Part shown: positions 35,173 through 58,800 of the stretch, in pieces
How the letters are laid out: each line of letters begins with the position of its first letter
Numbering within the stretch: position 1 is the stretch's first letter
From: Tannerellaceae bacterium
GTDB lineage: Bacteria; Bacteroidota; Bacteroidia; Bacteroidales; Tannerellaceae
Direction of reading: 5' to 3'
Assembly (NCBI GenBank): GCA_031257015.1
Contig: JAIRPK010000017.1
Location: forward strand, 1-64,000
Length of the DNA stretch: 64,000 nucleotides
Position numbers and translations under genes: made by a program
The notes under the pieces: generated by a model
What the model was told of the DNA's origin: nothing
The model's input: only the letters and a program-made list of their open reading frames with translations
Databases searched by the model: none

Positions 35173-36720
35173 ATGACGAAGCGAACTTTTATACTTTGGG
35201 CGGATGATGAAATCGACTTGCTGAAACCGCATATTCTTTTCCTGCAGGACAGACACTGTGAGGTGGATGCTGTCTTTAGCGGGCAGGATGCGATTGACCG
35301 ATGCAGGGAGAACCGGTATGATATTATTTTTCTGGATGAGAACATGCCCGGACTTTCGGGTCTGGAAACGCTGTCGATTATCAAGGAACTCGAACCGTCA
35401 GTTCCCGTCGTTATGGTTACGAAAAGCGAGGAAGAACGCATAATGGAGCAGGCGATCGGGAATAAAATTGCCGATTATCTTATCAAGCCGGTTAATCCGA
35501 ATCAGCTTCTGCTGACGATCAAAAAGAATGTCCACCAGCATATTTTTATATCCGAGACTGCAACTGCTGGTTATCAGCAGGAATTTGCACGCATCGGCAT
35601 GCAAATTCAGGATTCGCTCGCTGCCTGCGAATGGATAGAAATTTACAAAAAGCTCGTGCATTGGGAATTGGAGCTGGAGAGCGGCAACGCACAGTGGAGC
35701 GAAATGCTGAGGGTACAAAAGAGGGAGGCCAACCAGAGCTTTGGAAAGTTCGTGAAGCGCAATTATGCGGACTGGGTGGCAAATCCAAACGGGAGGCCGA
35801 CAATGAGCGTTGACTTGATGAAGAAAATCGTTTTCCCGATGCTCGATAACGGCGAAAATGTCTTTTTTATCCTTATCGACAACTTCAGGCTTGACCAGTG
35901 GAGGGTGGTGAAGGATGCGCTGACCGATGTGTTCGCGTTCGACGAATCGCTTTACTATTCAATATTGCCCACGGCGACGCAATATGCGCGTAACGCAATC
36001 TTTTCCGGACTTATGCCGGCGCAAATCGAGAAGCTTTTCCCTGAACTCTGGGTCGATGAGGAGAGCGAGGAAGGTAAAAACCTGAACGAGGAGCCGCTGA
36101 TCAGGACACAGATAGAACGGTTCCGCAAAAAGTACTCGTTTTCATATACCAAAATCAACGATTCGCAACAGGGGGAGCGGCTGGTTGGCAACATTGCAGA
36201 CCTTGCGCACAACCGGCTGAACGTGATCGTGCTCAATTTTATCGACATGCTCTCACATGCGCGGACGGAGATGAAAATGATTCGCGAACTGGCGCAAAGC
36301 GAGGCGGCGTACCGCAGCCTGACCAAGTCGTGGTTTCAGCACTCCTTCGCGCTGGAACTCTTTCACCGTATCGCCGAGAAAGGGGGATCTATTATCCTTA
36401 CTACCGACCACGGGACGATACGGGTGGACGACCCTGTGAAGATCATCGGGGACAAGAATACGAATACGAATTTGAGGTATAAGGTTGGGAGAAATCTGAG
36501 TTATAATGCCAAGGAGGTGTTCGAGATCCGCGAGCCGGACAAGGTCGGATTGCCAACGCCTAACTTGAGCAGCCGCTATATTTTTGCACTGAACGACGGT
36601 TTTTTCGCCTACCCAAACAACTATAATTATTACGTTTCATATTATAAAAACACCTTTCAGCACGGGGGAATCTCAATGGAGGAAATGCTCGTGCCGCTAA
36701 TCACTCTGCGACCGAAATGA
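35173..36720 (+). CDS. porX: PorX-type response regulator with PglZ domain
   Basis: In Porphyromonas, PorX works with the sensor PorY and a sigma factor to control type IX secretion; its PglZ domain is a zinc-dependent alkaline-phosphatase-type phosphodiesterase. The 515-residue product has an N-terminal receiver domain (acidic pair D11 D12, phospho-acceptor Asp55 in FLDENMPG, T83, K105 in LIKPV), a helical linker, and a C-terminal PglZ domain with [13 protein letters not shown] and metal-site residues in [12 protein letters not shown]. No DNA-binding domain is present. The sensor is not adjacent. Its stop overlaps the tsaE start by 4 bp (ATGA). Confidence 0.93.
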
Positions 36721-40402: not shown

Positions 40403-40618
40403 CGCAGATAATTTATTAGCATATAACGTAGCCTGGCCTCTCTTATTGCCGCCTCGCGCTTTTACGCCCACTGTTTTTAAAGCCTCCCGCAAGATGCGCG
40501 AAAGCCGGTTTTGACATTCGGAAGATGCCGGCGAAGCATCGGAAGCGCCAAGCCTATGGGGAAATTTACTGCCTCTTGATGTAGTTGGCTTTCTCGTGAT
40601 GTTACAACATGTTCCAAA

Positions 40619-40870
40619 AGCCAGCGCACCATTTCCGAAAGCCAGCGCACCATTTCCGAAAGTCAGCGCGCCATTTCCGAAAGTCAGCGCGCCATTTCCG
40701 AAAGTCAGCGCGCCATTTCCGAAAGTCAGCGCGCCATTTCCGAAAGTCAGCGCACCATTTCCGGAAGTCAGCGCACCATTTCCGGAAGTCAGCGCACCAT
40801 TTCCGAAAGTCAGCGCACCAGAGCCGGAATCGCCGGCACCAGAGCCGGAACTGTCGGCGCCGGCATATAT
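40619..40870. repeat. Tandem array 4: about ten copies of a 21-bp unit plus decayed copies
   Basis: Units of AGTCAGCGCACCATTTCCGA plus A start at 40619, 40640, 40661 and every 21 bp to 40808; two diverged units follow to about 40870. The period is exactly half that of the other arrays. The array sits between the divergent porE-like and patatin-GH13 genes. It reads as a 7-residue period on both strands (plus APFPKVS; minus GNGALTF). Confidence 0.95.
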
Positions 40871-40932
40871 CCGAAAGGGAGGGGAGGGAGGCGGGGCGGA
40901 TGCCGGCATGTTCGGAGGGGCACGGGAAGAGA

Positions 40933-41017: not shown

Positions 41018-43519
41018 ATGATGGTTTCAAATAAAAAATACAGGATCGGACTGGCTCTTAGCGGCGGCGGGGCTAAGGGGTTTGCGCATATCGGCGCTCT
41101 GAGGCTGATGGAGGAATATAATATTGTGCCGGACGTTATTGCCGGGACGAGCGCCGGCTCTATCGCGGGGGTTTTGTTTGCCGACGGATATTCGTCTGCC
41201 GAAATACAGGAGATTTTCACGGGGAGGGAACTCTCGGAGTTTGCGCGTTTGAAATTCCCAAAGGATGGGCTGCTGGACAGCGAGAGGTTTCGCCGATTCC
41301 TGGAAAAGCATCTGAGGGCAAGGCGTTTTGAGGAGCTGAAAATACCGCTTGTCGTCGTGGCTACCGACCTTGACAACGGGAGAAGCCATGAGTTCCGGAA
41401 GGGGCCGATTGCGGATGCCGTCGCTGCATCGTGCAGCATCCCGGTTGTCTTCAGTCCTGTCGAAATTGACGGGGTGCATTATGTGGACGGTGGTGTGTTC
41501 CGCAATTTCCCCGTATCGGTTATTCGCCGCGAGTGCGAATATGTTATCGGCGTTAATGTTTCGCCTTTTATTCCGGCCAGGTATCGACCGACTATTATTG
41601 GTATCGCCGAGCGTTCGTTTCATTATCTCTTCCGCGCCAATACGATTGAGGACCGCCGGCTGTGCGACGTGCTGATTGAAACGGAGGAGGCGGGGACTTA
41701 CCGGACGTTCGACCTGGAAAGCGTCGCTGCTATTGCCGATATTGGGTATGATGCTGCCGTCGCTGCTTTTAACAAAGCTATTGCGGAGCAATGTCCGCCT
41801 TTCCTTAAATATAAATCCCGGCTCAACCGCCATAAATACAATAATGATGAAATGAAAAAGACAATTATCTATCAAACTCTGCCGCGTCTGTTCGGCAATA
41901 TGAATCCTTCGCCGGTCAGGAATGGCGACCTGGCAAGGAATGGAGCAGGCAAATTTTCGGCTTTCTCGCCTGCGGTATTAAATGACTTGAAAGCTTTAGG
42001 TATAACTCACGTCTGGTTTACCGGCGTCATCGAACATGCTACGCAAACGGATTATTCCTTTTGCGGCATCGCCAAGGACCATCCTGCTATCGTAAAGGGG
42101 AAGGCCGGTTCGCCTTATGCCATTAAGGATTATTACGATGTTGATCCTGACCTGGCTGAAAATCCGCATCGGCGAATGGCGGAATTTGAGGAGCTGGTCA
42201 GACGTTCGCATGAGGCGGGGCTAAGGGTTATTATTGACTTTGTTCCTAATCATGTCGCACGGCAATATAAATCGGATGTGCACGTGGGGTTTGTTGACGA
42301 CCTGGGGGAGAAGGATGATGTTTCCATTGCCTTCTCGCCGCGCAATAACTTTTATTATATTCCGGGACAACCGTTTGCGCTTAATTTCTTTGCGCATAAT
42401 GAGGGGGTGGCATATGGTGAATTTCCTGCACGCGCAACGGGGAACAATTTGTTTAGCCCTGCTGCGGGAAAGGACGACTGGTATGAAACGGTAAAGCTTA
42501 ATTATGGGGTTAATTATGCCGACGGCGGCTCGAAGCATTTTGAGCCTGTTCCGGATACATGGAGGAAAATGCTCGACATTCTACGGTTCTGGGCGTCGAA
42601 GGGCGTTGACGGTTTCCGTTGCGACATGGCGGAGATGGTGCCCGTAGAGTTTTGGGCATGGGTTATTCCTGAAATCCGGAAGGAGTATTCTATTGTTTTT
42701 ATCGGGGAGGTTTATAATCCTGCCGAGTATCGGAATTTTATCGCCAACGGGCAGTTTGATTTCCTGTATGACAAGGTGGGGCTTTATGATATTCTTCGTG
42801 ACGTCATCTGTCGGCGGGTGGCGCCCAGGGAAATAACCAGGGCATGGCAGTCTATTGACGGACTTCAGCCTTCGATGCTTAATTTCCTCGAAAATCATGA
42901 TGAGCAGCGTATTGCTTCGGATTTTTTTGCTGCCGACCCATGGGCGGCTATCCCTGCCATGATTGTGGCGGCTTTCATTAATTCCGGGCCTGTGATGATT
43001 TATAACGGCCAGGAGCTGGGCGAACGTGGAATGGACGAAGAGGGGTTCAGCGGTCGCGACGGACGGACAAGCATTTTTGATTACTGGAGCATGGAAAGCG
43101 TTCGCGAATGGCTTAAGGATGAACTCCCGGAGGATCGGAAACGGCTCCGGGCAATGTATGCCTGCATATTAAATGCGGCTCAGTCGGAGCAGACTGTTGT
43201 TCAGGGGAGCTTCTTTGATTTAATGTATGCCAACGAGGGGAATCCGAGGTTTGATGCGGGATGTCTGTACGCTTTCATGAGGGCTTTCCAGAACGAAGCG
43301 ATGCTTGTTGCCGTCAATTTCGGATTAACGGAGCAGAGGGCTTTTATTCGCATTCCCCGCGAGGCGTTCGACGTCCTCAACATAAAGGATAACGGGGCGG
43401 CACGGACGCTCGAACTGTTCGGGGGCGAAACATCTATTGCCGCTTTGACATCTGTTTATCCATTTGAGACGGTTATTCCGCCCAGGGGGGGAGTGGCTGT
43501 GAAGTTTACGTATCTATAA
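41018..43519 (+). CDS. Fusion of a patatin-like phospholipase and a GH13 alpha-amylase-family protein
   Basis: The 833-residue frame holds two complete modules. Residues 1-278 are a patatin: glycine-rich oxyanion loop LALSGGGAKGFAHIGAL, nucleophile elbow GTSAG with Ser45, and catalytic Asp157 in YVDGGVF. Residue 279 onward is a GH13 enzyme that begins like a free-standing protein (MKKTIIYQTLPRLFGN). It has region I DFVPNH, region II GFRCDMAEM with nucleophile Asp536, region III FIGEVYNP with acid/base Glu564, and region IV ENHDEQR with Asp628. No linker or signal peptide is seen, so it should be cytoplasmic. Both catalytic sets look intact. I infer either a real fusion or two genes joined by loss of a stop; translation could also start at the ATG at 41852. 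Confidence 0.88.
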   Translation: MMVSNKKYRIGLALSGGGAKGFAHIGALRLMEEYNIVPDVIAGTSAGSIAGVLFADGYSSAEIQEIFTGRELSEFARLKFPKDGLLDSERFRRFLEKHLRARRFEELKIPLVVVATDLDNGRSHEFRKGPIADAVAASCSIPVVFSPVEIDGVHYVDGGVFRNFPVSVIRRECEYVIGVNVSPFIPARYRPTIIGIAERSFHYLFRANTIEDRRLCDVLIETEEAGTYRTFDLESVAAIADIGYDAAVAAFNKAIAEQCPPFLKYKSRLNRHKYNNDEMKKTIIYQTLPRLFGNMNPSPVRNGDLARNGAGKFSAFSPAVLNDLKALGITHVWFTGVIEHATQTDYSFCGIAKDHPAIVKGKAGSPYAIKDYYDVDPDLAENPHRRMAEFEELVRRSHEAGLRVIIDFVPNHVARQYKSDVHVGFVDDLGEKDDVSIAFSPRNNFYYIPGQPFALNFFAHNEGVAYGEFPARATGNNLFSPAAGKDDWYETVKLNYGVNYADGGSKHFEPVPDTWRKMLDILRFWASKGVDGFRCDMAEMVPVEFWAWVIPEIRKEYSIVFIGEVYNPAEYRNFIANGQFDFLYDKVGLYDILRDVICRRVAPREITRAWQSIDGLQPSMLNFLENHDEQRIASDFFAADPWAAIPAMIVAAFINSGPVMIYNGQELGERGMDEEGFSGRDGRTSIFDYWSMESVREWLKDELPEDRKRLRAMYACILNAAQSEQTVVQGSFFDLMYANEGNPRFDAGCLYAFMRAFQNEAMLVAVNFGLTEQRAFIRIPREAFDVLNIKDNGAARTLELFGGETSIAALTSVYPFETVIPPRGGVAVKFTYL

Positions 43520-44434: not shown

Positions 44435-46171
44435 TTATTTTTCTTCGTCCTTCTTTGTGTTTGTTGTGTTATTTAGAAAGCCGACAGGAGGCTTTTTTTT
44501 GAGTTTGCGTTCATGTTGCTTTTTAATTTCTGCCTCCAAAATTTCCATAGTAATACGCGAGTCATTTGTAATGCCATCTATTTTCCTTCCGATCGCTTCT
44601 CGTGAAGCCTCATCGCAAACAAACGGGATGTCGCTGGAAACAAACTGTTCAGAGAGAGTTGCCAATTTTTCGTAATTAATCCCGAAATCAAGCGGTTTAC
44701 GTTTGAGATAGAGTTCAAACATTGCCTTTCGCATCTCAAAATCGGGCGCCTTGATCTCAATCTTCTTTTCTAAACGTCCACTCCGAAGTATGGCTGGGTC
44801 TATCGTCTCTACTTTATTTGTAGAGGCCATTACGAACACGCGGCTATTGCCGATATTGTTCAACTGCACCAGAAATTCATTTACTTCTGCGCTTTGCTGT
44901 GTATTATCGCGCTTTGGCACCATTGCATCAAATTCGTCGAAGTAGAGAATTGTGGGCGCCTTTTCCTTGGCTTTATCAAATATTTCTTTGATTTTTTCCT
45001 GCGTACCATGAATATATATGCTTGCAATATCCGAGGGCTTTATTTTCATGAAATGAAAGCCTGTTTCTTCTGCAAAACACTCGGCAAAAAAAGTTTTTCC
45101 GCAGCCCGGCTCTCCGTAAAGCAATATTCCGTTGGGCAGTCCAAGTTCGTGTCGCTGGTATTCTTCGGGGTTGCGGATAACATTAATCACAGTCCTTTGC
45201 AGCTCTTTTTTAAGGTCTTGCATACCGGCAATGGCGGCGAAGCCTCCTTTTTTACTTACACTGTTTTTTTCTTCCGGCACTGACTTGTAGTCAACTACTA
45301 TTTCGCCATTCAGAGCTTGCAAAAATTCTGTTGCCGTTTGAAAACGCTTGTCGGGATTGCTTTGCAATGCTTTATGCAGAATATTCAGAATGGCATCATT
45401 GCAATCTACGACACGTGTTATATTAGGAAACAGTAACTTTTTTTTGCGTTGCTCCAATATTCTTTCGCCGATTCCAGCATCGTTCACATCCGAAATTGCA
45501 TCTTGATAAGGAAACATTCTGAACAGCATTTGATACAATATAACCCCAACTGAAAACGAATCGCTTTGCGGAGAGAATGCTCCGGGCGCAATACATTCAC
45601 TGGCTATATATCGCAGGGACGAATAATCATTTGGCCTTACATACGATTCTGAAGATTGGCCTGTTGTTCTCGCATTTCCGAGATCAATGATTTTCGCAAT
45701 CGGACTGCCCGACAGGTCAAGCATAATGTTATGCGGCGTGATTTCGTTGTGAATAATCGGTGTCGGCAAGGAGTGCAGATATTGCAAGCCGTTCAAAACC
45801 CCTGATAATATTTGCCGAATATCATAAAGATCAATAAGCGGATCACGCGCAAGACATTCTGCCAGTGTTTCTCCTCTTATAAAATCCGATACGAGGTATA
45901 AATATTTGCGGTTCTCTATAATGATTTCGCCGCTGTCTTTATATGCTGCAATATTCGGATGATTGACGGTTTTCAGAAATTCAATTTCGAATAAATTCCC
46001 GTTTGCATCAAAATCGTTCCGGTGAATTTGCTCTACATTAAACAGTTTCAGGCAATACGGTTTATTGTCTTTCCCACGCACGCGGTATGCTTCGGCATTT
46101 CGCCCCTTTTTGATAAAAAGCATGATTTCATACTTCCCATCAAACATTGATTTTTTTGTTAATGTACTCAT
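44435..46171 (-). CDS. Protein kinase-like domain fused to an AAA+ ATPase
   Basis: The 578 residues join a Ser/Thr kinase fold (about 14-290) to an AAA+ module (about 311-520). The kinase part has Lys42 (CLKLF), the metal-binding motif as DLG (163-165) and the SE of the APE-like motif at 191-192. The catalytic loop reads HNEITPHN (141-148) where active kinases have HRD.KPxN, so the catalytic Asp is Glu143 and the Lys is Thr. The glycine loop is also weak (KKGRNAEAY). The AAA+ part is complete: Walker A GEPGCGKT (353-360), Walker B ILYFDE (408-413), sensor Asn452, arginine finger Arg466. It looks like an FtsH/Cdc48-class ATPase controlled by a pseudokinase or unusual kinase. It lies downstream of the Hsp70-like gene by 110 bp. 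Confidence 0.88.
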   Translation of the reverse strand: MSTLTKKSMFDGKYEIMLFIKKGRNAEAYRVRGKDNKPYCLKLFNVEQIHRNDFDANGNLFEIEFLKTVNHPNIAAYKDSGEIIIENRKYLYLVSDFIRGETLAECLARDPLIDLYDIRQILSGVLNGLQYLHSLPTPIIHNEITPHNIMLDLSGSPIAKIIDLGNARTTGQSSESYVRPNDYSSLRYIASECIAPGAFSPQSDSFSVGVILYQMLFRMFPYQDAISDVNDAGIGERILEQRKKKLLFPNITRVVDCNDAILNILHKALQSNPDKRFQTATEFLQALNGEIVVDYKSVPEEKNSVSKKGGFAAIAGMQDLKKELQRTVINVIRNPEEYQRHELGLPNGILLYGEPGCGKTFFAECFAEETGFHFMKIKPSDIASIYIHGTQEKIKEIFDKAKEKAPTILYFDEFDAMVPKRDNTQQSAEVNEFLVQLNNIGNSRVFVMASTNKVETIDPAILRSGRLEKKIEIKAPDFEMRKAMFELYLKRKPLDFGINYEKLATLSEQFVSSDIPFVCDEASREAIGRKIDGITNDSRITMEILEAEIKKQHERKLKKKPPVGFLNNTTNTKKDEEK

Positions 46172-46281
46172 TGTTTTAACTATGATTTTTATTAATAATT
46201 CTCACCCCGCAGACGAGTTTTTTTTACTTGCCTGCAAGGTGAGGATTATTGCTGTATTGTTTAATAAATGACTGAATAAAA

Positions 46282-49068
46282 TTATATTACGACTATTCTG
46301 CGACGAAGCTGTCCCACTATTGCTATTACCTCATTTTCTATCAATTGGCCGCTGTTGTGCATCGGCCAAGCTTTATCAATTAATGCTTTAGCTTTGTCCC
46401 TGCTTTTCCATTCAATCTCATCAAAATTGTTTGTGAAATATGCTAAATATTTCAACGGGAAGAAAGTTATCTTCGCATACTCCTCCTGTATTGTCTTCCG
46501 ATTTAATTTTTTTGCCCTCGTAATATTTTCTTCTTTAATTACTAATTCAATTTTTTGTCTTAAATCGAGAAGCATATTGTCTATCTTCCCACTTTCTAAT
46601 AATTGTATTGTATAACTAAACAACATATTCAACTCTCTCCACGAAGACGGAGGCTGTTTCTTGAGAGTATTACAGACCTCTTCTAATTCAAAATATGCGT
46701 CGCGCAGTCCTTTCTTATGTGGCGGCCAAAATGTCTCCAGATTCAAAAGTATTTTACGCAAGTCGTTTTGGATTTCCAGCCTTCCATCTGCAGAGCCTCG
46801 TTTATTTTCTAGTTTTTCTTCAAGTTCAGTCAACTCTTTTAAAATATCCTCGGCCTTTTCAACTTTGTCCAGCCTGCTTTTAGTGGCATCAATTTTTGCC
46901 TGCAAGTCATCGGTCTCGGGGACATTCATATTTTTGATTTCAATCTTAACCTCTTCGGAGTGTTCCAGCGCCGGGAAAAATACTTCAACCGTCATTTGGC
47001 TTGAGCGATCTATCTTAACTTTAAGATCAACAGAGCTGCCTTTCGGCAAGAGAGCCGGCAAATGTTCGCCTGTGATAATAACCTCGCTCACAAGATTGTT
47101 CAATTCAGGGTTGCTTTTGGCCTTAGCGTACTTATCGCCTTGATAAATTGGGATGTGGATATTATCGCTCCTGCCAGGACGAACGTCCTCGCTGGTTTTT
47201 AAGTTATTTATCACTCCTTTCACTCCTTCTGGTGAAATTTCCCTGTTCTTTTCTAATCCTTTGATTGGAAAGATCAGTTCTTCATCTTCATCTTCAAAAT
47301 ACTTAACGATGCAGTAGTCATACTGCAGAACCGGCACTATGATCGGCTGAACGACAATTTTAGCCGGTTCGCAGCCAATGCGGTTGCCATTATTGTCATA
47401 GACATTTATTGTAAACTCGTTCCTAGCACCTTGTTTTAAAGGGATTTTTAACGAAGCAAATCTTTCGCCAGTAATTGGCATTTTTGCGCTCCTCCATCCC
47501 CGATCTGCACGGACCAGCTCCGCTTCGTATTTCGATGAGAATTGGCCTGTTGTATCCTTCACTTTTATATCTATATCGGTTTCTGCTGCAGGCGTTTCCG
47601 GGTCGTATATAAGCTGGAGCTGTATTGTCTCCGATGCGTCAACGCCAAAGTTGATAATGTTTGGCTTGCAGTCAATGCGCTCACCGTTACTACCATATAC
47701 ATTTATTGTAAACGTGTTGGATACATTTTTCTTCAAAGGAACGTCGTTAAACAAAGCTGCTCTTCTTCCACCAAGCGAAATTTTATTGCTTGTCCATCCC
47801 CCGTCAGAACGAACAAGTTCTGCTTCGTATTTCGACGAGGAGCTGCCTGTTGGTTGCTCCATCACTTTTATACTGACATCGGTGAAATCATCTGTAGTTT
47901 TCGGTCGGTAATTAACTTCGAGCTGTATGGATTCCTCCGGAAAAACAATACTGGAAGCATATAAGGCCGCACCGGAAGCGACAATAGTCATCGGGTCTAT
48001 AGAAGTATCAACATTTTTAGTAATCTGCTCTTTTAGCATGCTTCGCAAAATAGAAGAATGTGTCGGGCCACCAACTAATATCAGCTTATCCAAGTCACTT
48101 CCTTGCATGTTGTTTCTTTTCAACAAGGCTTTGGTAATTTCGATAGCATCCTGAAAAATGGGAGCTACAACTTTTTCCAAATTCTCTCTCGTAATAACCA
48201 TATTAATCTCCGGTTGTATGCCGTTCTCGTCTTTAAAATGCAGGTCGTCAAGATTAGTACAAATGCCATGTGACTGCTTAAAAGATAATTGATTTTTTGC
48301 CTCTTCAGCGAACCTCTTTAATGCATCGCGAAGTATTTGCTTTTTACGGGACGAAGTTAAAATTTCGTTAAGGGCATAATGTTTACGCAAGTACGGCAAG
48401 ATTAGCTGATCTACGATTGCCTCATCCAGGTTCTTGCCGCCAAGCCAGTTATCTCCTTCAGTATCCTTGACTTTCAAAGAGCCATCTTCTACCTTTAATA
48501 ACGCGGCATCAAATGTTCCACCTCCAAAGTCAAACACAAGCCAATAGCCGTTTTTATCATGCGCTTTCAATCCATAGGCTGTAGCCGCCGCAATAGGTTC
48601 CTGCAATAGAACGATATTCTTAAAACCGGCCAACTTCGCCGCCTCCATGGTAGCACTGCATTGCTGACTGGTGAATTTAGCAGGAATCGTTATTACGATC
48701 GAGGATATATTCTCGTCCAAGACTAACGATTTGAGCTTCTTCAGAACTTCGGCTGAAAGCTCAACACTATTCAACGATCTACCAAGGTTTTTACAGTAGT
48801 AAGTCGTATTCGTCCCCATTGTGCGCTTAAACTCGATAAAAGTATTCTGCTCGCCCTCGTTGAAGTTTTCCAATGCTCTCGCATAGTCGTTTCTCAGCGC
48901 ACCGATAGCGGGTTCTCCAACCAACAAGAACCCGCGGTGGTTATAACCCACACATGAAGGCACGGTATCTCTCAAAGAATCGGATTTAATAACCCGTGGT
49001 ACTCCGTCCTCTATCATAACTATAGCGGAGTTTGTTGTTCCTAGATCTATTCCGAATTGTTTACTCAT
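46282..49068 (-). CDS. Divergent Hsp70-like chaperone with duplicated beta-rich insert
   Basis: The 928-residue protein has an Hsp70 ATPase domain (about 1-375): IDLGTTNSAIV (phosphate 1), VFDFGGGTFDAAL (phosphate 2, 178-190) and LILVGGPTHSSILRSML (adenosine, 329-345). Two copies of a beta-rich segment of about 80 residues follow, exactly 100 residues apart: SSKYEAELVR at 411 and 511, FTINVY at 453 and 552. A substrate-binding-like beta region (about 612-715) contains TGEHLPALLPKGSSVDL, and a coiled-coil tail of 200 residues ends the protein. It is longer than DnaK (about 640 residues) and lacks the EEVD/lid-type end. Its neighbours suggest its own co-chaperones. Confidence 0.9.
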   Translation of the reverse strand: MSKQFGIDLGTTNSAIVMIEDGVPRVIKSDSLRDTVPSCVGYNHRGFLLVGEPAIGALRNDYARALENFNEGEQNTFIEFKRTMGTNTTYYCKNLGRSLNSVELSAEVLKKLKSLVLDENISSIVITIPAKFTSQQCSATMEAAKLAGFKNIVLLQEPIAAATAYGLKAHDKNGYWLVFDFGGGTFDAALLKVEDGSLKVKDTEGDNWLGGKNLDEAIVDQLILPYLRKHYALNEILTSSRKKQILRDALKRFAEEAKNQLSFKQSHGICTNLDDLHFKDENGIQPEINMVITRENLEKVVAPIFQDAIEITKALLKRNNMQGSDLDKLILVGGPTHSSILRSMLKEQITKNVDTSIDPMTIVASGAALYASSIVFPEESIQLEVNYRPKTTDDFTDVSIKVMEQPTGSSSSKYEAELVRSDGGWTSNKISLGGRRAALFNDVPLKKNVSNTFTINVYGSNGERIDCKPNIINFGVDASETIQLQLIYDPETPAAETDIDIKVKDTTGQFSSKYEAELVRADRGWRSAKMPITGERFASLKIPLKQGARNEFTINVYDNNGNRIGCEPAKIVVQPIIVPVLQYDYCIVKYFEDEDEELIFPIKGLEKNREISPEGVKGVINNLKTSEDVRPGRSDNIHIPIYQGDKYAKAKSNPELNNLVSEVIITGEHLPALLPKGSSVDLKVKIDRSSQMTVEVFFPALEHSEEVKIEIKNMNVPETDDLQAKIDATKSRLDKVEKAEDILKELTELEEKLENKRGSADGRLEIQNDLRKILLNLETFWPPHKKGLRDAYFELEEVCNTLKKQPPSSWRELNMLFSYTIQLLESGKIDNMLLDLRQKIELVIKEENITRAKKLNRKTIQEEYAKITFFPLKYLAYFTNNFDEIEWKSRDKAKALIDKAWPMHNSGQLIENEVIAIVGQLRRRIVVI

Positions 49069-49296
49069 TGTTTTTTTCTATTGTTTAATTATTATTTAAT
49101 GATCCTTTATGTATATATCGACAATATGATTCCCTTTGGAGTCAAAAATGTTGTACTTATCAATGGGATGCATGATTTTGGAATGATGTGTGCTGCCTTC
49201 TCGATTCTATCTTAAGGACATCCATCTGGCGTCCGTAATCTGCGTAAACAAACAATGTTAAGTACTGCCTCTGGTTAAATTAAAGAATCCAATATT

Positions 49297-50193
49297 TTAT
49301 CGTTTTGTTGCTCCTACTCTAAGCTCTATCTGCGCCGCTTGTATCATTATTCCCTTATAATCTACTTGTGGCTTTACGATTTTAGAAATTATTTCCATTC
49401 CTTTTTCCAAGCTCTCGTCAAAGACGCTGCTTATGACAATCACGTTCAGTCCTTCGACGTAACGTTTGCCGAGCAGTGTGGGTATTTCATAGCCGTATGC
49501 CGAGAGATTGTCTTTGAGTCTTTCGGCTGAGTGCTTTATTTGGTTCACTCCTCTTATGCCTGGTTCCATTAGTGAAAGATTTCTCTCGATAAGCGTGATC
49601 TCATCGGCCAGCTTAAGTGGAATAGAATGGTCAAGTTCGGCTGGTGGAGGCGAGGAGCCTTTCTGTAAAGCTAAGTCTTTAAGGCTCCCCAAAATATCTG
49701 TTTGCAGCGCTAATCCCCCTGCTACTTTTTCATCCAAATCAAACTTGTATTTCTCAAACTGCCCGATAATATCATAACAGTCTTTTTTCCGGTAGATGTA
49801 GAGCCATGCGAACAAAGCTCCTTGTATCAACAATAATAATGCGACGCTAACCAGCGACCATCGTAAGACGGTACGCCGCGTTTCCGAAACCTCGACTTGC
49901 GAAGTTTCGGATATTGCTACTAATTCGGAGTGGGTGATTTTGGCATCTAAACTGTCGGTAAGAGCGACGATTTTTGCTTTTTCGACTCGAAGCTGCGATT
50001 GCAATTGCTGAATATCCTTGCCTGCCGCCGTGAGCTGCCTTTGAAAAAAGACCCTTTGATTTTTCAGTTCTGTTTGTAACGCCTCGACGCGCCTTTGCAG
50101 GTTAACAAAGGCATGGCTGTCGGACGACTGCGAAAATACTGTAACTGCGAACAGCACAAGAACGAGTGTTAATTTTATTTTATCCATAACCAT
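49297..50193 (-). CDS. Membrane-anchored GrpE-like nucleotide-exchange protein (predicted)
   Basis: The 298 residues begin with a signal peptide or first membrane helix (about 5-20, cleavage possible near VFSQ-SSD). A coiled coil (about 28-95) and a membrane segment (111-134, RWSLVSVALLLLIQGALFAW) followed by RKKD come next; the positive charges predict a cytoplasmic C-terminal part. Residues 190-294 resemble GrpE: a helix with IERNLSLMEPGIRGVNQI, then YGYEIPTLLGKRY, then the beta part ending YKGIMIQAAQIELRVG, which parallels the end of GrpE (KGY...R.A.V.V). The similarity is by eye and not strong. The gene lies 23 bp after the J-like gene and 228 bp before the Hsp70-like gene. Confidence 0.6.
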   Translation of the reverse strand: MVMDKIKLTLVLVLFAVTVFSQSSDSHAFVNLQRRVEALQTELKNQRVFFQRQLTAAGKDIQQLQSQLRVEKAKIVALTDSLDAKITHSELVAISETSQVEVSETRRTVLRWSLVSVALLLLIQGALFAWLYIYRKKDCYDIIGQFEKYKFDLDEKVAGGLALQTDILGSLKDLALQKGSSPPPAELDHSIPLKLADEITLIERNLSLMEPGIRGVNQIKHSAERLKDNLSAYGYEIPTLLGKRYVEGLNVIVISSVFDESLEKGMEIISKIVKPQVDYKGIMIQAAQIELRVGATKR

Positions 50194-50216
50194 ATATATT
50201 TAATAATTTGTATTAT

Positions 50217-52106
50217 TTACTTGCTTGCTGCTTTCACTATCCATCCAAGAACAATTCCGGCAGTAACTCCAATGATAATAGGACCGGTTCCGCCAACTAT
50301 TACCCCTATTACTCCGCCTATAAAACCAAATATCCACCACGCATTTGAAAGGAACCAGGGTATCTTTTTCCACCATTTCAAATAACTCACTTCAGGAACG
50401 CATGGCTGGTATAAAAGTTTAAAAACTGTGTCAACTAGCTTTTTATACTTGGAGAGTTGTTTATTATTTGTTGATTCTTTAATTATCCCAACTATTTGAT
50501 CGGGGAACTGCATTTGTATCGACTTCACAACATTCCGGCTCAATGATTCATACCGGGACATATTATTGTTATGGAGCCAATCGAGCATTTTTTTTACTTC
50601 TTTCAAGAACGCTATTTTCTGTAATAATGCCGTTTCTTTTACCTTTTTTAGCAAGGCTAATATTTGCTTCTTATTACTATCGTCAGCAATGCTCTTTGCC
50701 ATATCCAGCAAGTGGATAACTTTCACATAAAAGTCTTCATTTTGAACGTTTTTATGACAGTAGTCAAAAAAAAGACCCGAACATAACACGAGTTCCTGTA
50801 CAACTTCGTTAGCCATTTTCATTAACGTCTTGCGAAAATCATTCATGTTTGGGATTTTCTCAACACTGTCTGCTAATTCGTTTAACAGACGAAGTATGTC
50901 TTTGGTGTTTTCGTATAGTGTTTTCCCTGCATCGTAAGCGGCAGCGGCTTTATCTTCGCGTTTTTTTCTACAAATAGCTATTTCAGCTTCGATATTTATT
51001 TTACCCTCTGGCTTTTCACCTATTGGAGCTTTTTTCTTTCCATTCCCTGGCTCCTCTTCCTTTCTCCCACCTCCAATATCATCAAGATTTTTCATGTCAT
51101 TCTCTATTTGCACTTTCAGTTGCATCCCCGCAGCAGTATCCTTCGCAAAAGTTATCAGCTCCTTCGCTTTTTTATAGTCGTTGCTTTTGTTAAAAAAATC
51201 AATTGAGCAAAGTCTGAGTTCTATTGCGACTTCATCGGCAACAGATGTATAGTGAAGCTCTTCGCAGTATGCTTTTATTTGATCCAATTGTTTTTTTGTG
51301 TTCTCATGAAGCGCCTTGCCGGCAGTGTAGGTATCGGAGGGTTTTTCTTCTCTCTTGCTCTTTGCTCTCTTGCTCTTTGCTTTTTGTATTTCAGCTTTGA
51401 CATCTTCTGTCGTTTGCGTGGAGTGCAACTGTTTGAAGAAATCGTCTTTGGATACAAATTTAAGGCCTTGCAACAGCGATCTGAATCTAGGCAAAGTTAA
51501 AATTGAGTTTTTTTGTTTTATCTCCTTTCCAACTTCTTCCAAAAAATAGTATTGCTGCTCTTTGGCTGTGGTTTTGAAGTACTTGTCGATCGCCTTCTCT
51601 GTAAACGAGCTGAAATACCCACTTTCAATAAATTTGAGATTGGCAACGATTGCGTGCTCTTTATTGCCGTTCTGGCGAAGCATCTCAAGCACAAACAGAT
51701 TGTGATAAGCTGAAAAGTTACGCTCTGTTATATCTCGCCAGTATCGCTTCCCACCTCTGGTTTCGGCAACAACGTTGTTCCAGACGTTAAATGCGTGTTC
51801 AATATCCATGTTGTTGTCTTTCAAACTTTCAAAGGCGGCTTCGTCGGTAATATCATAGCCGTTCCAGAACCAGAAAAGCGACCATTGCATTTTTTGTGTA
51901 TCCGTGTCGAGATTTGAACGTGCTTCTTGAACAGTATCAACAGTACGGTTTAACGTTCCGAGTGAAGGGAAACTGAAATCGATAGGCAGCGGTATCCCTG
52001 CTTTAATAAGCTGTATCAGACGGTTGGCAGCTTCTCTAATTTGATTGTTACTTGCACCGGCAAGGATGCCGAGGATGCGGTAGGGGTTGTTTAAAATGTT
52101 CTCCAT
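50217..52106 (-). CDS. J-like membrane protein of the Hsp70 cluster
   Basis: The 629-residue protein starts NNPYRILGILAGASNNQIRE, which matches helices I-II of a J-domain (..YYEILGV...AS..EIK.AY). No HPD follows at the expected place (KAGIPLPIDFS instead), so it may not stimulate Hsp70 in the usual way. Two related helical repeats follow: AGKALHENTKKQLDQI (about residue 265) and AGKTLYENTKDILRLL (about residue 390), each preceded by a charged linker. The C-terminal end has two membrane segments (about 580-600 and 605-623, GFIGGVIGVIVGGTGPIII and VTAGIVLGWIV). First gene of the minus-strand group. J-like proteins with this start are known next to Hsp70-like genes in this phylum. Confidence 0.75.
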   Translation of the reverse strand: MENILNNPYRILGILAGASNNQIREAANRLIQLIKAGIPLPIDFSFPSLGTLNRTVDTVQEARSNLDTDTQKMQWSLFWFWNGYDITDEAAFESLKDNNMDIEHAFNVWNNVVAETRGGKRYWRDITERNFSAYHNLFVLEMLRQNGNKEHAIVANLKFIESGYFSSFTEKAIDKYFKTTAKEQQYYFLEEVGKEIKQKNSILTLPRFRSLLQGLKFVSKDDFFKQLHSTQTTEDVKAEIQKAKSKRAKSKREEKPSDTYTAGKALHENTKKQLDQIKAYCEELHYTSVADEVAIELRLCSIDFFNKSNDYKKAKELITFAKDTAAGMQLKVQIENDMKNLDDIGGGRKEEEPGNGKKKAPIGEKPEGKINIEAEIAICRKKREDKAAAAYDAGKTLYENTKDILRLLNELADSVEKIPNMNDFRKTLMKMANEVVQELVLCSGLFFDYCHKNVQNEDFYVKVIHLLDMAKSIADDSNKKQILALLKKVKETALLQKIAFLKEVKKMLDWLHNNNMSRYESLSRNVVKSIQMQFPDQIVGIIKESTNNKQLSKYKKLVDTVFKLLYQPCVPEVSYLKWWKKIPWFLSNAWWIFGFIGGVIGVIVGGTGPIIIGVTAGIVLGWIVKAASK

Positions 52107-52158: not shown

Positions 52159-52187
52159 CAGTCAGCCATTTCGGAAATGGCTGACTG
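52159..52187. promoter_or_regulatory. Perfect 29-bp dyad upstream of the Hsp70 cluster
   Basis: CAGTCAGCCATTTC and GAAATGGCTGACTG flank a single central G. The dyad ends 53 bp before the ATG of the J-like gene. It could be an operator for a dimeric repressor or a hairpin in the leader. No -7 box is obvious next to it. Confidence 0.6.
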
Positions 52188-52838: not shown

Positions 52839-55800
52839 TTATTGGGTGAGGGAGAAGCGGATGCTGACGCCGTAGTCGGCATTTGAGGTGGGGTATGCGG
52901 CAGCGGATATGAGGGGATTGTTCCTTTGGAGGTTGTAGAAGGCGCGGAGGTTGAGGGAGCGGCTGACACCATAGTCAGCGGAGAATTGGATGGTTTGCCC
53001 GATGTTTCCGCTGGTGGCTTGCGCGGATGCGTCCTGAATCTTGCGGATGAGGGATTGCATCTTTGTGTATTTATAGTCAATGCGGAGGTTGAGGTCGTTG
53101 CTGAAATCTTGGCTGGCTTTTATTCTTAGCAGCTTGTTAAACTCAGTAAGCTTATATCCCAGTCCGACGGTGATGCCGTTGGTTATGGCTTCGACGAGAT
53201 GGAAGGAAGAGATGTTAAGGTTTAACATTCTTGTCCGGTCGTAGCTTGTGCGCATGGTGATGTTGTTGACGAGGGTTCCGTCAAGGCCAAGGAGTGGACT
53301 GAATCCTTCGGATATGGATACGCCGACGATGCTGTTTTGTGCGGAGGGGGCTGGATTGCCTGTGAATGGGTCCTGGATGAATCCGAATCCATTGTTTCCG
53401 ACACTGACCCAGTTGAGCTGGGAAGAGTATGCGCCGACGTTATATGTGCTGCGGTATTGATGGCTAAGTACGAGGCTTTTGAAATGCTGCTTGATGAGAG
53501 GTATTTTGCCCAGGCCGTCGTAGCTTATCCTCCAATTGGGGAGGATGGAGAGGAGGCTGGGGAATGGGGAGAGGGAAATGCTTGATGCGGAGCGACCGCC
53601 GTAGGCTGCAAGGAAGGCGGGGATGAGAACTTCGGTGGAGTTTATATTGACATTGCCGTTGGCAAGGGATGGATTGTATGGTTGTCCGGCCAGTGATGAG
53701 CCTTGGAGGAAGCCGGCGTTGGGGTAGTTGAGGGCGGAGTAGTTTCTTTCCAGTCTTGCAGCTATGGCGTTGCGGTTGGCGAGGAATTTAGCGAAGGTTT
53801 TGGAGGCGTAGTTATTGCTTGCATCGCCCATGCTTTCAAATGCGGAGCCAATGGAGAGCATACTTATTGAGAAGCTTCCTCCTCGGAGTTCGGGCATCCC
53901 GTTGTACATGTACTGTATTTCGGTGTTCCTTGTGTCTGTGCGGTTGGCGGAGAGGTCTATTTTAAGCCCGGAGAAGGGTTCGAGGCTTACATTGGCGACG
54001 AGGGTTGCTGCGTTATTTATCATTGCGGGCGTTATGTTGTTACGGTTCATGACGAGCCAGTCTTTTTGGGAGAGTTCGTCTATGTAGCGTCTGCTGACGT
54101 TGCCAAAGGCGAATCCCAGACCTGGAGCCAGGCCTGAGGATGAACTCCCTTGTCCGAACATGCCGCCTATTGCGGGGCGATAACCGGGTATCATCATTCC
54201 GTCCGTGATGGTGTATTGCAGGTTCAGCCGTTTGAGCATCATCATGAAGAGGAGGGCGTTCTCGCCGACTTGCCTAGCAATGCCATCTCCTTTTGGGGGA
54301 GCGTATGTGAGGGTAACGGTGAGGGTAACGGTGTCGCGGTTTTCTATTTTGAGCTTGTTGTAATCAACAGTTTTGTGTTTTAGCCGGTATATTCGGCCAG
54401 CGGATGTTCTGGCACGGATGTTTACGTCTTTGGTTAACATGCCGTGTTCAAGGATGGTTGCACTGTCTGGGCTTAGCTTGATGGTGCGTTCGATTTTTGT
54501 GCCGTTTGTTTTTTTTATGGGGACAGCTCGGTTGTTTCCGTTATGTTTTTGGTTAAGTTCTTTCAGGGGCTTTATTTTATTATAGAGAGAACTGAAATTA
54601 ACGTTGGCAGTGGCTCCGATTATTCTTTGGTTTTTTATAGTGTTTCCGATTTCGATTCTGTCTTCAACGGCGGCTCCTCTGTCCCAATTGTATGTTGCGG
54701 AGTATTCTGCCTGCGCGTTTATCCATTCGAGGGCGGGTATATAGGTAAACGGGAGAGTATAAGAGGCTTTGAATGTTTGGTCATAGCGTAGGGGGGTTCC
54801 CATTTGTGCGATGCTTTGGCGGACGGAATCTTTCCATATTTCGTACTGGTCGGGGTTGAGTTGTTTGTTGACTTGGATGCGAGGCTCTTCGATGCGGGCG
54901 TTAGTACCTGAAGTGAAGGTGGCTTTGAGATTGTTGGTGAAATTCCATGAGAGGCTGAAGGCGCGATCCCAGAGGAAGTTCTGACTGAAGGAGAGAAGGT
55001 TTCTTTTATCTTGAGCGGATTGTACTATGCTGTTAAGATTGCGCATTTGTATTTCGTAGTAGTTGCGCATCATTGAGGTCTGGAAGCTGATGTTGGAGGG
55101 AAGGTAGCTGAAAGCTAATTGTTTTATATATCGCGTGTATCCGTTGCTTTTGGAGATGTTCGCGAATGGGCGGTAGGGGGGGATATAGGGACTGTATGCG
55201 TATGCGAAATTGCCTCGGTAGTCGAGGGTGGTTTCATATTCGACATCTGGGCGGTAGCGATTGTTTTCGCTAAATGCGTATCCAATACTGAAGTTTGCCG
55301 GATCGTACGGCATGGGGGTTTTGCTTCGAATATCGACTTTTACGTTGTTAAACGAAATGCTTCGGACGATGGATTTTTCGCGGGCAAAGCTTAGGATGGA
55401 ATCTTTTTCTGATTTTTTTGCTACGGCGTCTAAGGCTTCGCTTAGGGTTATGTCCTGGTCAAGTGGATTGTATTTGGGGTCGGTTATTTCTTTTGCGAGG
55501 GTGTAGTAGAGTGGTATGCTTACTTTGGCTTCTTTGGGAAAGAATTTGCCCAGCTCTACATTTGTGGCGATGCTATATTGGGTGTAATCGTCCATTCGCC
55601 GCTGATTGACGGACTGTTCCAATCCTCCGAAGCCGGATGTTTCGATGCGTCCGGAGAGATTCACGGTTCCCAGGTCGGAGAGAGCCAGATTTAATGAGGC
55701 GTTGGCAGCCCATCCTCCTTCTTCGTTGAAATCGGTCAGCCGGAGTTCATTTATCCATACTTCAGCGCTTTTGGGGGCTTTTGCATTGTTGCGGACGCCG

Positions 55801-58800
55801 ACCATTATTACTTTGACTTCAGAAAGGGTGGGATTGCCGACTACAGTGATTTTGTTGTTGATATTATCGGGGTCGAAGTCGGAGTAAGGTATTTGATAAC
55901 CTACACCTGATAGCCCCATACGCTTGTCACGGTTTCGCTTTAACTTGAGGTTAGTAAGTATTTCAAAGCGGAAGTCCAACATGTTTTGTCTAGGCCAGAC
56001 TGTTTCCTGATCAGAGACATTGTAACTATTATAGTTATCTCTATGCGGCGTCATTTTGAGGGGAACTTCGTACTCGTAATAATTATTCCTGTAATCAGAG
56101 CCAAGGCGAATGAAGACGGATAGTTCCGAATCGTCCGGCCTGGTAAATTCATCGTTGATGAGCGTTTCTGCATGACTGAAGAGTTGCATGCGTTTGTATT
56201 GCCTCATGTCGTAAAACGCACTTTTGTATATAGCTCTTGCGTCTTGCGAACCGAGGTTCATGATTTTCATGGATAGAGATTGCTCGTTTTGCTGCACGAG
56301 GTTAGGCTGCCCGGGGTCAATCATGCGGGTTACTCCTGGAGGAAGGACGTAATTAACCGGCTGGCGACTGCTATTTTCTTCTATGTTTACTGACGATACG
56401 TCGAGCGTGGCTCCTGCAGAGGGAGCTGCGGACGGACTTGATAAATCCTGCGTGTATGTTCTCCATTCACTTCTGACTAGCTGAAATGTGCCGAAGCGCA
56501 GAATGGTAGTGTCCCGGAAGCCTGTCATGTACATGCGCATGAAACGGATGGTTTTAAAGTCGCGTATGGAACCTATCGCTTTTGTGTATTGCTTTACGGG
56601 AATTTTGAACTGGTACCAGCGGACGGTCTCCGTTTTGCCGTTTTCCAATCTTACGTTTGCATCGTGTGCATCTACGATAAAATTGTTTCCGACTTTCATA
56701 TTTTCAGGACGAAGTGATATTTTGTATTGAAAATATCGTTCGTTTTCGTTCATGGTATTGTCTTGGTTGAGGTCTTCCACATCAGGGGTGGTGCGGGCAG
56801 CCATGTTGTAGTTTTGCCCTTCGGATATGGCGCTGTTGCCTTCGGTGCCGTTGTAGTACTTGTATCTTTCGATGATGCCGGCTTCGTCGCGGTCAAGGTC
56901 AGCGCCACGGTAATGACGGAAGTTGTCGCCGGCCGGGTCGCTTAGGAATGGGGTTAATGCTTCGGGTGTCAACTTGGACTGAAGTTTTATCAGATAATCG
57001 CGGTAAGCAGGATATTGAGCCTCTTCTTCAGATGATAGTCCGTTTAAGCCCACATCTTGAAGACGGCGTGAACCGACAGAGTTGTCAAAAGCGTAAACTG
57101 TGCTTTGTAGGCGGGGTACTTTTCCCCAAACGGTGTAATCCACCTTGGATGTGTCTCCGTCTATTGGAAGGCCGTTCTCAAAGAACTTCTTTTCATCCTT
57201 CAGTACATCCTCGGATATTTCTCCCAAGTTGAAATACAGCTCGCCACCGGTAGATTGAGGCTTATATATAAACGGGTCGAGCACCCAGAACTCGATGAAC
57301 TCGATGTTGGCGGTTTCAAAATCGCTTTGGTCGATCTTGCGCATCATTCCTCCCCAACGCTTTTCTGGATTCATCAACGTGCCATCGGGGTTAATTCCTT
57401 CGGCGTCCAAATTGTAGGGACCTCTTGTATTGGGATAGAAGGCGACGTTGAGGGACTGGATGGTATTAGCTTCGTTCATGGTAAGGTTTCGGTTTGGGAA
57501 CAACTCGTCAACATATATGGCACGAACATAATGGTTGGACAGCTGCTCCTTGTCTCTCTTTATGTGGGCGGGAACTTGTGTCGAGTTCGGGCGAGTGAAG
57601 AGACCGTCGATATAATACCATGCCATGAGCGCTCTGTTCTTTCCATAGTCGATATTATTAACTAATGACGCTTCTTGGAAACGCTTGTCCGCGCCGTCCT
57701 CCAAAGGAACGCTGGAGAGATTCCATGGATACGGGTCGCGGAGTTCAAAACCGTTTTGCGTTGATTCAAAGTCGTCTAGATAAGTATATTTCCCTGTGTA
57801 TTGGTTCTCATAATGCCCGGCTATGAGGTGAGCGAACTCGGCGTTGAAGGATATTTGGCTGGGGGCGGTCAGTTCCAGCAAGGGGATTTTGTCCAGCACA
57901 TTCGTGAGCCACTGACTTTCTGTTTTGAATGAAGTATTCATGCCCCATAAAGTATTTCGCACAGATTCGTCTCCAAAAGTTGTTTTAGTAGTGAGCGGCA
58001 TTTCGGAGAGGTGCATGATTGTTGCTCCGAGGCTGAAGTTTTTGCTGAATTGATAATTCATGTCTAAACCAAGCATGGTTTTGCGCTGGCGGTTATAGAA
58101 GGATTGGTTTTCAAGATCGACATTAATGGGTGTTCCACTTGCTACGACGCCGTCGTTTAGGATAGTGACTATGCCTGATGCGTAATCGACTATGTAGTCA
58201 ACATTCTCGATCAGAGTTTGCCCGCCGGCTGTGACTCTTACTGAACCTCTGGCGACGTTACCCATGCCTAACTGTATTTCCGAGCCAGACGAGGCTTTAT
58301 ATTCGCCACGGAGGATAAACTTGTTCTTCTCTGCTATTTGGCTTGCATAGTTTAATGTCGAATCGTAGAGTTCCTGAAAGACATATTTGTCAGCTATGGA
58401 TGGATTGCCTATCTTTTTATGCAGATGAGAGCCAAATGGCTCTACTACGGGGAAGATTATTTTGCCGCTGGTTGGCAATATAGTTACGCCTTCTACAAAA
58501 TCGTAGAAGCCATCTGGAAACGGCTCATTCCTCTGGTCTAGCCTGTCAAGACTCAATACGCGCAACAACAGCTGATCTTTGATGTCGCCCTCTGATATAT
58601 AATTAAGATATGTACCAGTTGTATCGTTTTGGTAGAGAACGTCGAGGCGGAAACGGTCTTTCTGGACGGAATAGGCATCGAGGGAGTAAACGTTTTTCAT
58701 CATCAAATCCCAGAATATCATATCGGGCGACATGGATGTGCCTTTGAGCAGTTTAACATAGAGGTTTTCGGTCGTCCCTCTGGCATTGTCGGTGGAAAAC

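Follow-up and report, generated by a model that had tools for sequence, protein, structure and literature searches.

The ClpB/Hsp104-DnaK bichaperone disaggregase combines an Hsp70, a J protein and GrpE with an AAA+ threading ring. Four intact open reading frames (ORFs) on the minus strand at 44435-52106 of the window, the 64,000-nucleotide stretch of contig JAIRPK010000017.1 analysed here from a Tannerellaceae bacterium (Bacteroidota; genome of 3.1 Mb, 93% complete), encode a J-like protein, a GrpE-like protein, an Hsp70 and an AAA+ protein. This set differs from the disaggregase in that its single classical-clade AAA+ domain is fused to a kinase fold, in its membrane tethering and in the defence-island location of the family. 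In transcription order the genes are:

50217-52106, minus strand: gene 1, J-like protein of 629 aa (ORF; residues 1-340 conserved)
49297-50193, minus strand: gene 2, membrane-anchored GrpE-like protein of 298 aa (ORF; conserved in 80 loci)
46282-49068, minus strand: gene 3, divergent Hsp70 of 928 aa (PF00012)
44435-46171, minus strand: gene 4, pseudokinase-AAA+ fusion of 578 aa (Pfam Pkinase and AAA)

Among other described systems, HscC of E. coli with DjlB and DjlC is similar in pairing a specialised, patchily distributed Hsp70 with membrane-tethered J proteins (PMC8215388). However, HscC belongs to another Hsp70 clade, keeps R167, N170, T173 and Q378 and is thought to be GrpE-independent, whereas a GrpE fold and an AAA+ protein are encoded in the operon described here and the J domain lacks HPD. 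The DjlA-DnaK-GrpE system shares a membrane J protein, a TerB-like domain and dependence on GrpE (PMC11709261), but here TerB is encoded separately in relatives and not at all in the window, GrpE itself is membrane-anchored, and the Hsp70 and its J-like partner are dedicated copies. The GAP1-N2/GTPase-centred systems (Kaur et al. 2020, PMC7159879) are predicted conflict systems that likewise contain Hsp70, GrpE and J components. The present operon instead has an AAA+/pseudokinase, a transmembrane (TM) GrpE and, in relatives, TerB; no GTPase, tubulin, MoxR, VWA or FNIII is found among the four window products, and placement with these systems was rejected because their defining genes are absent. 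Hsp70 homologues also occur in the defence superoperons of CoCoNuT Type III (Hsp70-like CnuD), where the Walker A-like motif is described as degenerate and the Walker B-like motif as conserved usually but not always (PMC11090510). In contrast, the Hsp70 of the window retains the ATPase residues and comes with GrpE- and J-like partners of its own; neither McrB/McrC nor HEPN is present among the four products, and the absence of McrB/McrC led to rejection of a CoCoNuT placement. No described system with this gene set was found in full-text searches of the open-access literature, a coverage that leaves out subscription journals and most preprints.

The four genes are a conserved operon and no chance grouping. 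When an alignment of the 298-aa GrpE-like protein was run against 84,980 species genomes, 139 relatives were confirmed, of which 80 loci, nearly all from Bacteroidota, were kept for counting. Hsp70 was present in 75 of these, the J-like gene in 73 and kinase-AAA+ in about 58, with many of the missing genes cut off by contig ends, and both order and strand were kept in nearly all loci. Intergenic gaps were mostly below 20 bp (medians of 0.5, 17 and 9.5 bp). Within the family Tannerellaceae, residues 1-340 of the J-like protein are present in 15 of 125 genomes, and most of the 15 neighbourhoods fetched with this region show the same four-gene order. An earlier note on this DNA had placed four minus-strand genes here, correctly so, and had proposed joint conservation of the neighbours as a test; the same set in the same order indeed recurs in most of the 80 loci.

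Complete relatives mostly carry a fifth, TerB-like gene. It occurs in 45 of the 80 loci and is fused to the kinase-AAA gene in two, while none was found in the window operon or elsewhere in this 93% complete genome. In about 15 loci (L055-L114) the TerB-like gene is followed by a DUF6804-type membrane protein of about 100 aa, which may be a sixth component. Some Bacteroidales have a 307-aa protein without Pfam match between Hsp70 and pseudokinase-AAA+ (L039:8502-9425 and L082:12369-13292). The window itself shows a gap of 228 bp between the GrpE-like and Hsp70 genes (49069-49296), while the median elsewhere is 17 bp; the stretch reads like leftover sequence. A perfect 14-bp palindrome at 52159-52187 (CAGTCAGCCATTTC n GAAATGGCTGACTG) lies directly upstream of the J-like gene; it was rejected as part of the system because the upstream regions of relatives do not share it.

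Searches of protein family collections were of limited help for the first two genes. Pfam gave no significant match for either of them among the four products and, with NCBIfam and PADLOC included, the J-like protein had no usable match and the GrpE-like protein had chance coiled-coil matches only. In the PADLOC models the Hsp70 and J-like proteins were unmatched, the GrpE-like protein matched at chance level, and the kinase-AAA protein was recognised by generic kinase and AAA models. As sequence profiles are weak, the J-like and GrpE-like assignments rest on predicted folds. The J-like protein has these features:

51867-52106, minus strand: J-fold domain, residues 1-80, with NPYR...LFWF motifs and no HPD (AF2, VIA-align)
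50223-50351, minus strand: two C-terminal TM segments, residues 586-604 and 610-628 (hydropathy)

According to the AF2 model of residues 1-120 (pLDDT 81.9), the 629-aa protein starts with a predicted J fold. J domains made up essentially every top match of this model in Foldseek and VIA-align; the latter gave a Z of 6.9 and a root-mean-square deviation of 2.7 over 63 residues, and the best J-domain match in Foldseek had an E of only 0.084 at a probability of 0.98. Canonical J domains were matched weakly in profile-profile comparison (37%, restricted to helix 1), DnaJ was not among the families listed by single-sequence Pfam scans of 65 J-like relatives, and the HPD motif was found in none of 69 relatives. 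The C-terminus of the relatives carries TM segments in 31 cases and a CFI-type box (CFI-box-CTERM) in 20, with the CFI-box annotation present in one.

The GrpE-like protein is laid out as follows:

49876-50193, minus strand: N-terminal hydrophobic segment or signal peptide (residues ~1-21) and predicted periplasmic coiled coil (residues 26-106) (hydropathy; model)
49795-49851, minus strand: transmembrane helix, residues 115-133 (hydropathy)
49312-49632, minus strand: cytoplasmic GrpE-like domain, residues ~188-294 (Foldseek, VIA-align)

Its AF2 model, built from 67 sequences (pLDDT 85.9), consists of long helices, one of them spanning residues 26-100, and then a small beta domain. In Foldseek against the PDB the 12 best matches were all GrpE (best E 2.9e-5, probability 1.00) and the first non-GrpE match followed at E 0.89. 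VIA-align also retrieved GrpE (Z up to 8.7, 1dkg), but BAG domains and further helical proteins reached a similar Z, so that Foldseek bears the weight for this fold. Sequence comparison gave less: PF01025 matched 11 of 67 homologues at E <= 0.1 (best 7.4e-7), a count confounded by the coiled coil, with no match for the window protein, and profile-profile comparison with GrpE was weak (9%). The 298-aa protein thus has, in its model, a GrpE fold, and nucleotide exchange is a predicted activity. Hydropathy marks an N-terminal hydrophobic segment (residues 2-20) and a single TM helix (115-133), and an internal TM segment is found in 71 of 72 homologues. The predicted layout is a periplasmic coiled coil, a TM helix and a cytoplasmic GrpE domain. 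The earlier note had called the two proteins J-like with C-terminal membrane segments and GrpE-like with a membrane anchor, naming the J fold and a relationship to GrpE as tests. Both identities agree with the structural matches, the former with the qualification that HPD is absent, and the hydropathy profiles place membrane segments in both proteins.

The third gene, which had been described as a divergent Hsp70, is clearly of this family (PF00012, residues 5-372, E 7.5e-69), with the match covering the nucleotide-binding domain (NBD) only. Three regions can be distinguished in addition to the remaining sequence:

47944-49068, minus strand: Hsp70 NBD with ATPase residues kept and HPD-contact residues replaced (sequence comparison)
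47335-47934, minus strand: two Ig-like repeats replacing the VLLLD linker (sequence comparison)
46915-47334, minus strand: domain like the beta part of the substrate-binding domain (SBD-beta) (hhalign)

In an NBD tree with a small outgroup sample, the Hsp70s of this system split from DnaK, HscA and HscC on a branch of 1.23 with support of 1.00, which points to a separate clade. All residues equivalent to the ATPase positions D8, K70, P143, E171 and T199 are retained. The opposite holds for the J contact. In DnaK, D35 of the HPD motif contacts R167 and Q378 (PMC8215388). Among 69 system Hsp70s the R167 position holds Glu in 51, Gln in 11 and Arg in only 2, and Val in the window; in 20 of them aligned with the E. 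coli proteins, N170 is replaced by Gln in 19, T173 by Ile, Val or Tyr, and Q378 by Phe or Tyr. DnaK, HscA and HscC retain all four. Loss of HPD in the J-like protein and loss of its partner residues in the Hsp70 therefore go together. HPD is treated as the signature of J proteins that drive Hsp70, partnered with R167 of the latter, and a family that lacks both yet keeps the folds and the operon would be a natural test of how this contact can be rebuilt or dispensed with. The VLLLD interdomain linker is absent from this clade by sequence comparison, and the stretch after the NBD is instead probably Ig-like, doubled here and in single copy in most relatives. The SBD-beta-like domain is colinear with the canonical DnaK SBD in hhalign (E 6e-4, with a probability of only 28%), and DnaK came out weakly (E 0.67) in a PDB profile search. 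The earlier proposal of a locus with the three parts of an Hsp70 cycle stands as far as the folds are concerned, but the cycle itself is only half supported because neither side of the interface has the residues for J stimulation.

Perhaps the Hsp70-like protein is no chaperone but an ATP-driven switch or scaffold, with J stimulation lost, GrpE serving only to reset the switch and the AAA+ ring acting as effector. HPD is missing in 69 of 69 relatives, R167, N170, T173 and Q378 are replaced and the VLLLD linker is absent, and the Hsp70 homologues of CoCoNuT are also regarded as lacking chaperone function (PMC11090510). Nevertheless, D8, K70, P143, E171 and T199 are kept, unlike the degenerate Walker A-like motif of the CoCoNuT homologues, an SBD-beta-like domain is retained (a weak match), and a J-like gene with its fold intact remains in the operon. 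On balance this explanation seems unlikely.

The fourth gene product matches both Pkinase (1.8e-36) and AAA (1.9e-33) in Pfam, with two domains:

45302-46147, minus strand: kinase-fold domain with HNE instead of HRD, Glu143 occupying the catalytic Asp site (homologue alignment)
44552-45244, minus strand: classical-clade AAA+ domain with Walker A and B, arginine fingers and aromatic pore loop (homologue alignment)

The AAA+ half is almost fully conserved: the Walker A Lys, the Walker B Glu, both arginine fingers and the pore-loop aromatic residue are found in 58 of 58 homologues and the Walker B Asp in 56. The kinase half is not, as the same 58 homologues have Glu (38, as in the window), Asp (9) or another residue (11) at the catalytic Asp position. 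It is predicted to be catalytically impaired, and with a non-Asp residue in 49 of 58 homologues any kinase-type control is unlikely to be phosphorylation. While the kinase-like/AAA+ fusion proposed in the earlier note is confirmed by Pfam, its kinase half is thus probably a pseudokinase, and an unfoldase controlled by phosphorylation finds no support. In one Tannerella genome (L028/L078), which carries two Hsp70 genes, the AAA+ slot is taken by a protein with AAA_2, AAA and Peptidase_M41 domains that resembles FtsH/Clp proteases. This single case hints at unfolding or proteolysis as the output of the system.

The same substitution would suit quality control of membrane proteins or the envelope instead of defence, in which the tethered Hsp70 would pull damaged proteins out of the membrane for unfolding by the AAA+ protein, in the manner of DjlA or HscC/DjlC. 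The membrane anchors of the J-like and GrpE-like proteins and a TerB-like partner as in DjlA fit this role, and a precedent exists in HscC and its tail-anchored partners DjlB/DjlC (PMC8215388). The operon, though, is rare and patchy where a housekeeping function would be expected to be kept more widely, and it is repeatedly located in defence islands and next to Tn7-like genes. A low probability is therefore given to this role.

The C-terminal GrpE-like domain occurs in 6 of 395 genomes of the phylum, the window genome included; the profile of the GrpE-like protein listed 122 genomes, nearly all of them coiled-coil noise, and only the six with the C-terminal domain were counted. No relatives were found in phage and viral collections, an absence that proves little. 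The only plasmid match for the GrpE-like protein is pHALHY02, which carries the full five-gene operon with SIR2/WD40 genes on one side and, on the other, the BREX genes BrxL and PglZ together with a restriction gene for 5-methylcytosine. At the remaining loci the 115 nearest flanking proteins matched 167 PADLOC families at E <= 1e-15, compared with 7 for 113 control proteins from 20 arbitrary Bacteroidota genome stretches, although this contrast overstates the number of defence proteins because PADLOC families overlap. Twenty flanking proteins, picked for large size and hence no unbiased sample, were inspected singly; clear cases, each from a different genome, are the Type I restriction proteins HsdR (L090 and L074) and HsdM (L072), GajA of Gabija (L076), PbeA (L089) and an RT-NERD-helicase (L087).

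Related Hsp70s (2e-88 to 1.7e-131 against the family profile) are also found on plasmids of Pseudomonadota. Beside the Hsp70, these relatives encode a soluble GrpE-like protein of 115-124 aa. The match of these small proteins to GrpE is modest, with E between 6e-7 and 2e-4 for four of them and weaker values for others. Some relatives also have an AAA+ protein (3e-50 to 5e-44) and an HPD-less partner whose likeness to J proteins was judged by eye and a weak profile only. The Shewanella and Aeromonas relatives adjoin Tn7-like transposition genes and that of Polaromonas lies near Zorya. In E. coli, a relative is present in 1 of 5,426 genomes (HeN100; NZ_CP044443.1, about 4115537-4122320), beside RADAR RdrB and DptF, which makes the defence idea directly testable.

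Since relatives repeatedly sit among anti-virus genes, we infer a role in anti-phage or anti-plasmid defence. The earlier note had listed stress repair, envelope quality control and defence as possible jobs; the last, named there only as an option, has by far the most genomic support. We see about an even chance that the operon encodes a chaperone/unfoldase machine that is anchored at the inner membrane, has spread horizontally and is linked to defence. In such a machine the J-like protein would gather Hsp70 and client at the membrane via a private, re-wired contact, and the transmembrane GrpE domain would couple events outside, such as damage to the envelope or the entry of phage DNA, to the release of ADP by Hsp70. 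The Hsp70 would then pass the client to the AAA+ ring to be unfolded, with the pseudokinase acting as an adaptor or nucleotide sensor for the ring.

Several observations weigh against this machine in addition to the inflated PADLOC count. None of the four genes encodes a nuclease or obvious effector, and no defence genes adjoin the window copy. Island residence equally suits other mobile cargo. With HPD and R167 gone, the contact between J-like protein and Hsp70 could be lost instead of re-wired, and a role of the periplasmic coiled coil in signal sensing is only guessed from the topology. Alternatively, the operon could be an abortive-infection or toxin-like module whose AAA+ ring unfolds an essential host protein once a phage perturbs the membrane. 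The conserved threading motifs and the defence-island context would be compatible with such a module, but a toxin domain is absent and there is no sign of a paired antitoxin, which leaves it very improbable.

A membrane-wired GrpE domain would be a new way of controlling Hsp70 from outside the cell. If the defence link is true, a chaperone/unfoldase mode would be added to bacterial immunity. It is conceivable, if rather doubtful at present, that the operon represents a new class of immune machine, an Hsp70 system complete in itself with an envelope-sensing TM exchange factor, a J-Hsp70 interface without HPD and R167 and a pseudokinase-steered AAA+ unfoldase, in which phages are stopped by protein unfolding and not by cutting of nucleic acids.

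The window copy of the operon lies between sprA and a glycosyltransferase-like/amylase locus. The three congeners that have the operon, complete or in part (G005, G018 and G020), carry it and sprA on different contigs, and an empty insertion site beside sprA could not be shown, as the contigs of relatives that hold sprA do not include the amylase gene. The SprA-like protein (52839-60254) and a PorX-like receiver-PglZ protein (35173-36720; PF00072 and PF08665), whose PglZ domain does not make it a BREX gene here, are components of type IX secretion. On the other flank, patatin-like and alpha-amylase-like parts are fused in one gene at 41018-43519, whereas they are two adjacent genes in several congeners. 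A short tandem repeat encoding repeated GALTFGN units is found at 40590-40910, at the 5' end of an OmpA/TPR ORF. Elsewhere in the same genome a second unusual Hsp70 cluster (L040; G000:C37, 33000-52500) encodes GrpE, two Hsp70s (one of them fused to VWA), a protein with a zinc ribbon and a TPR protein that matches DO-GTPase2 weakly, and resembles the systems of Kaur et al. 2020.

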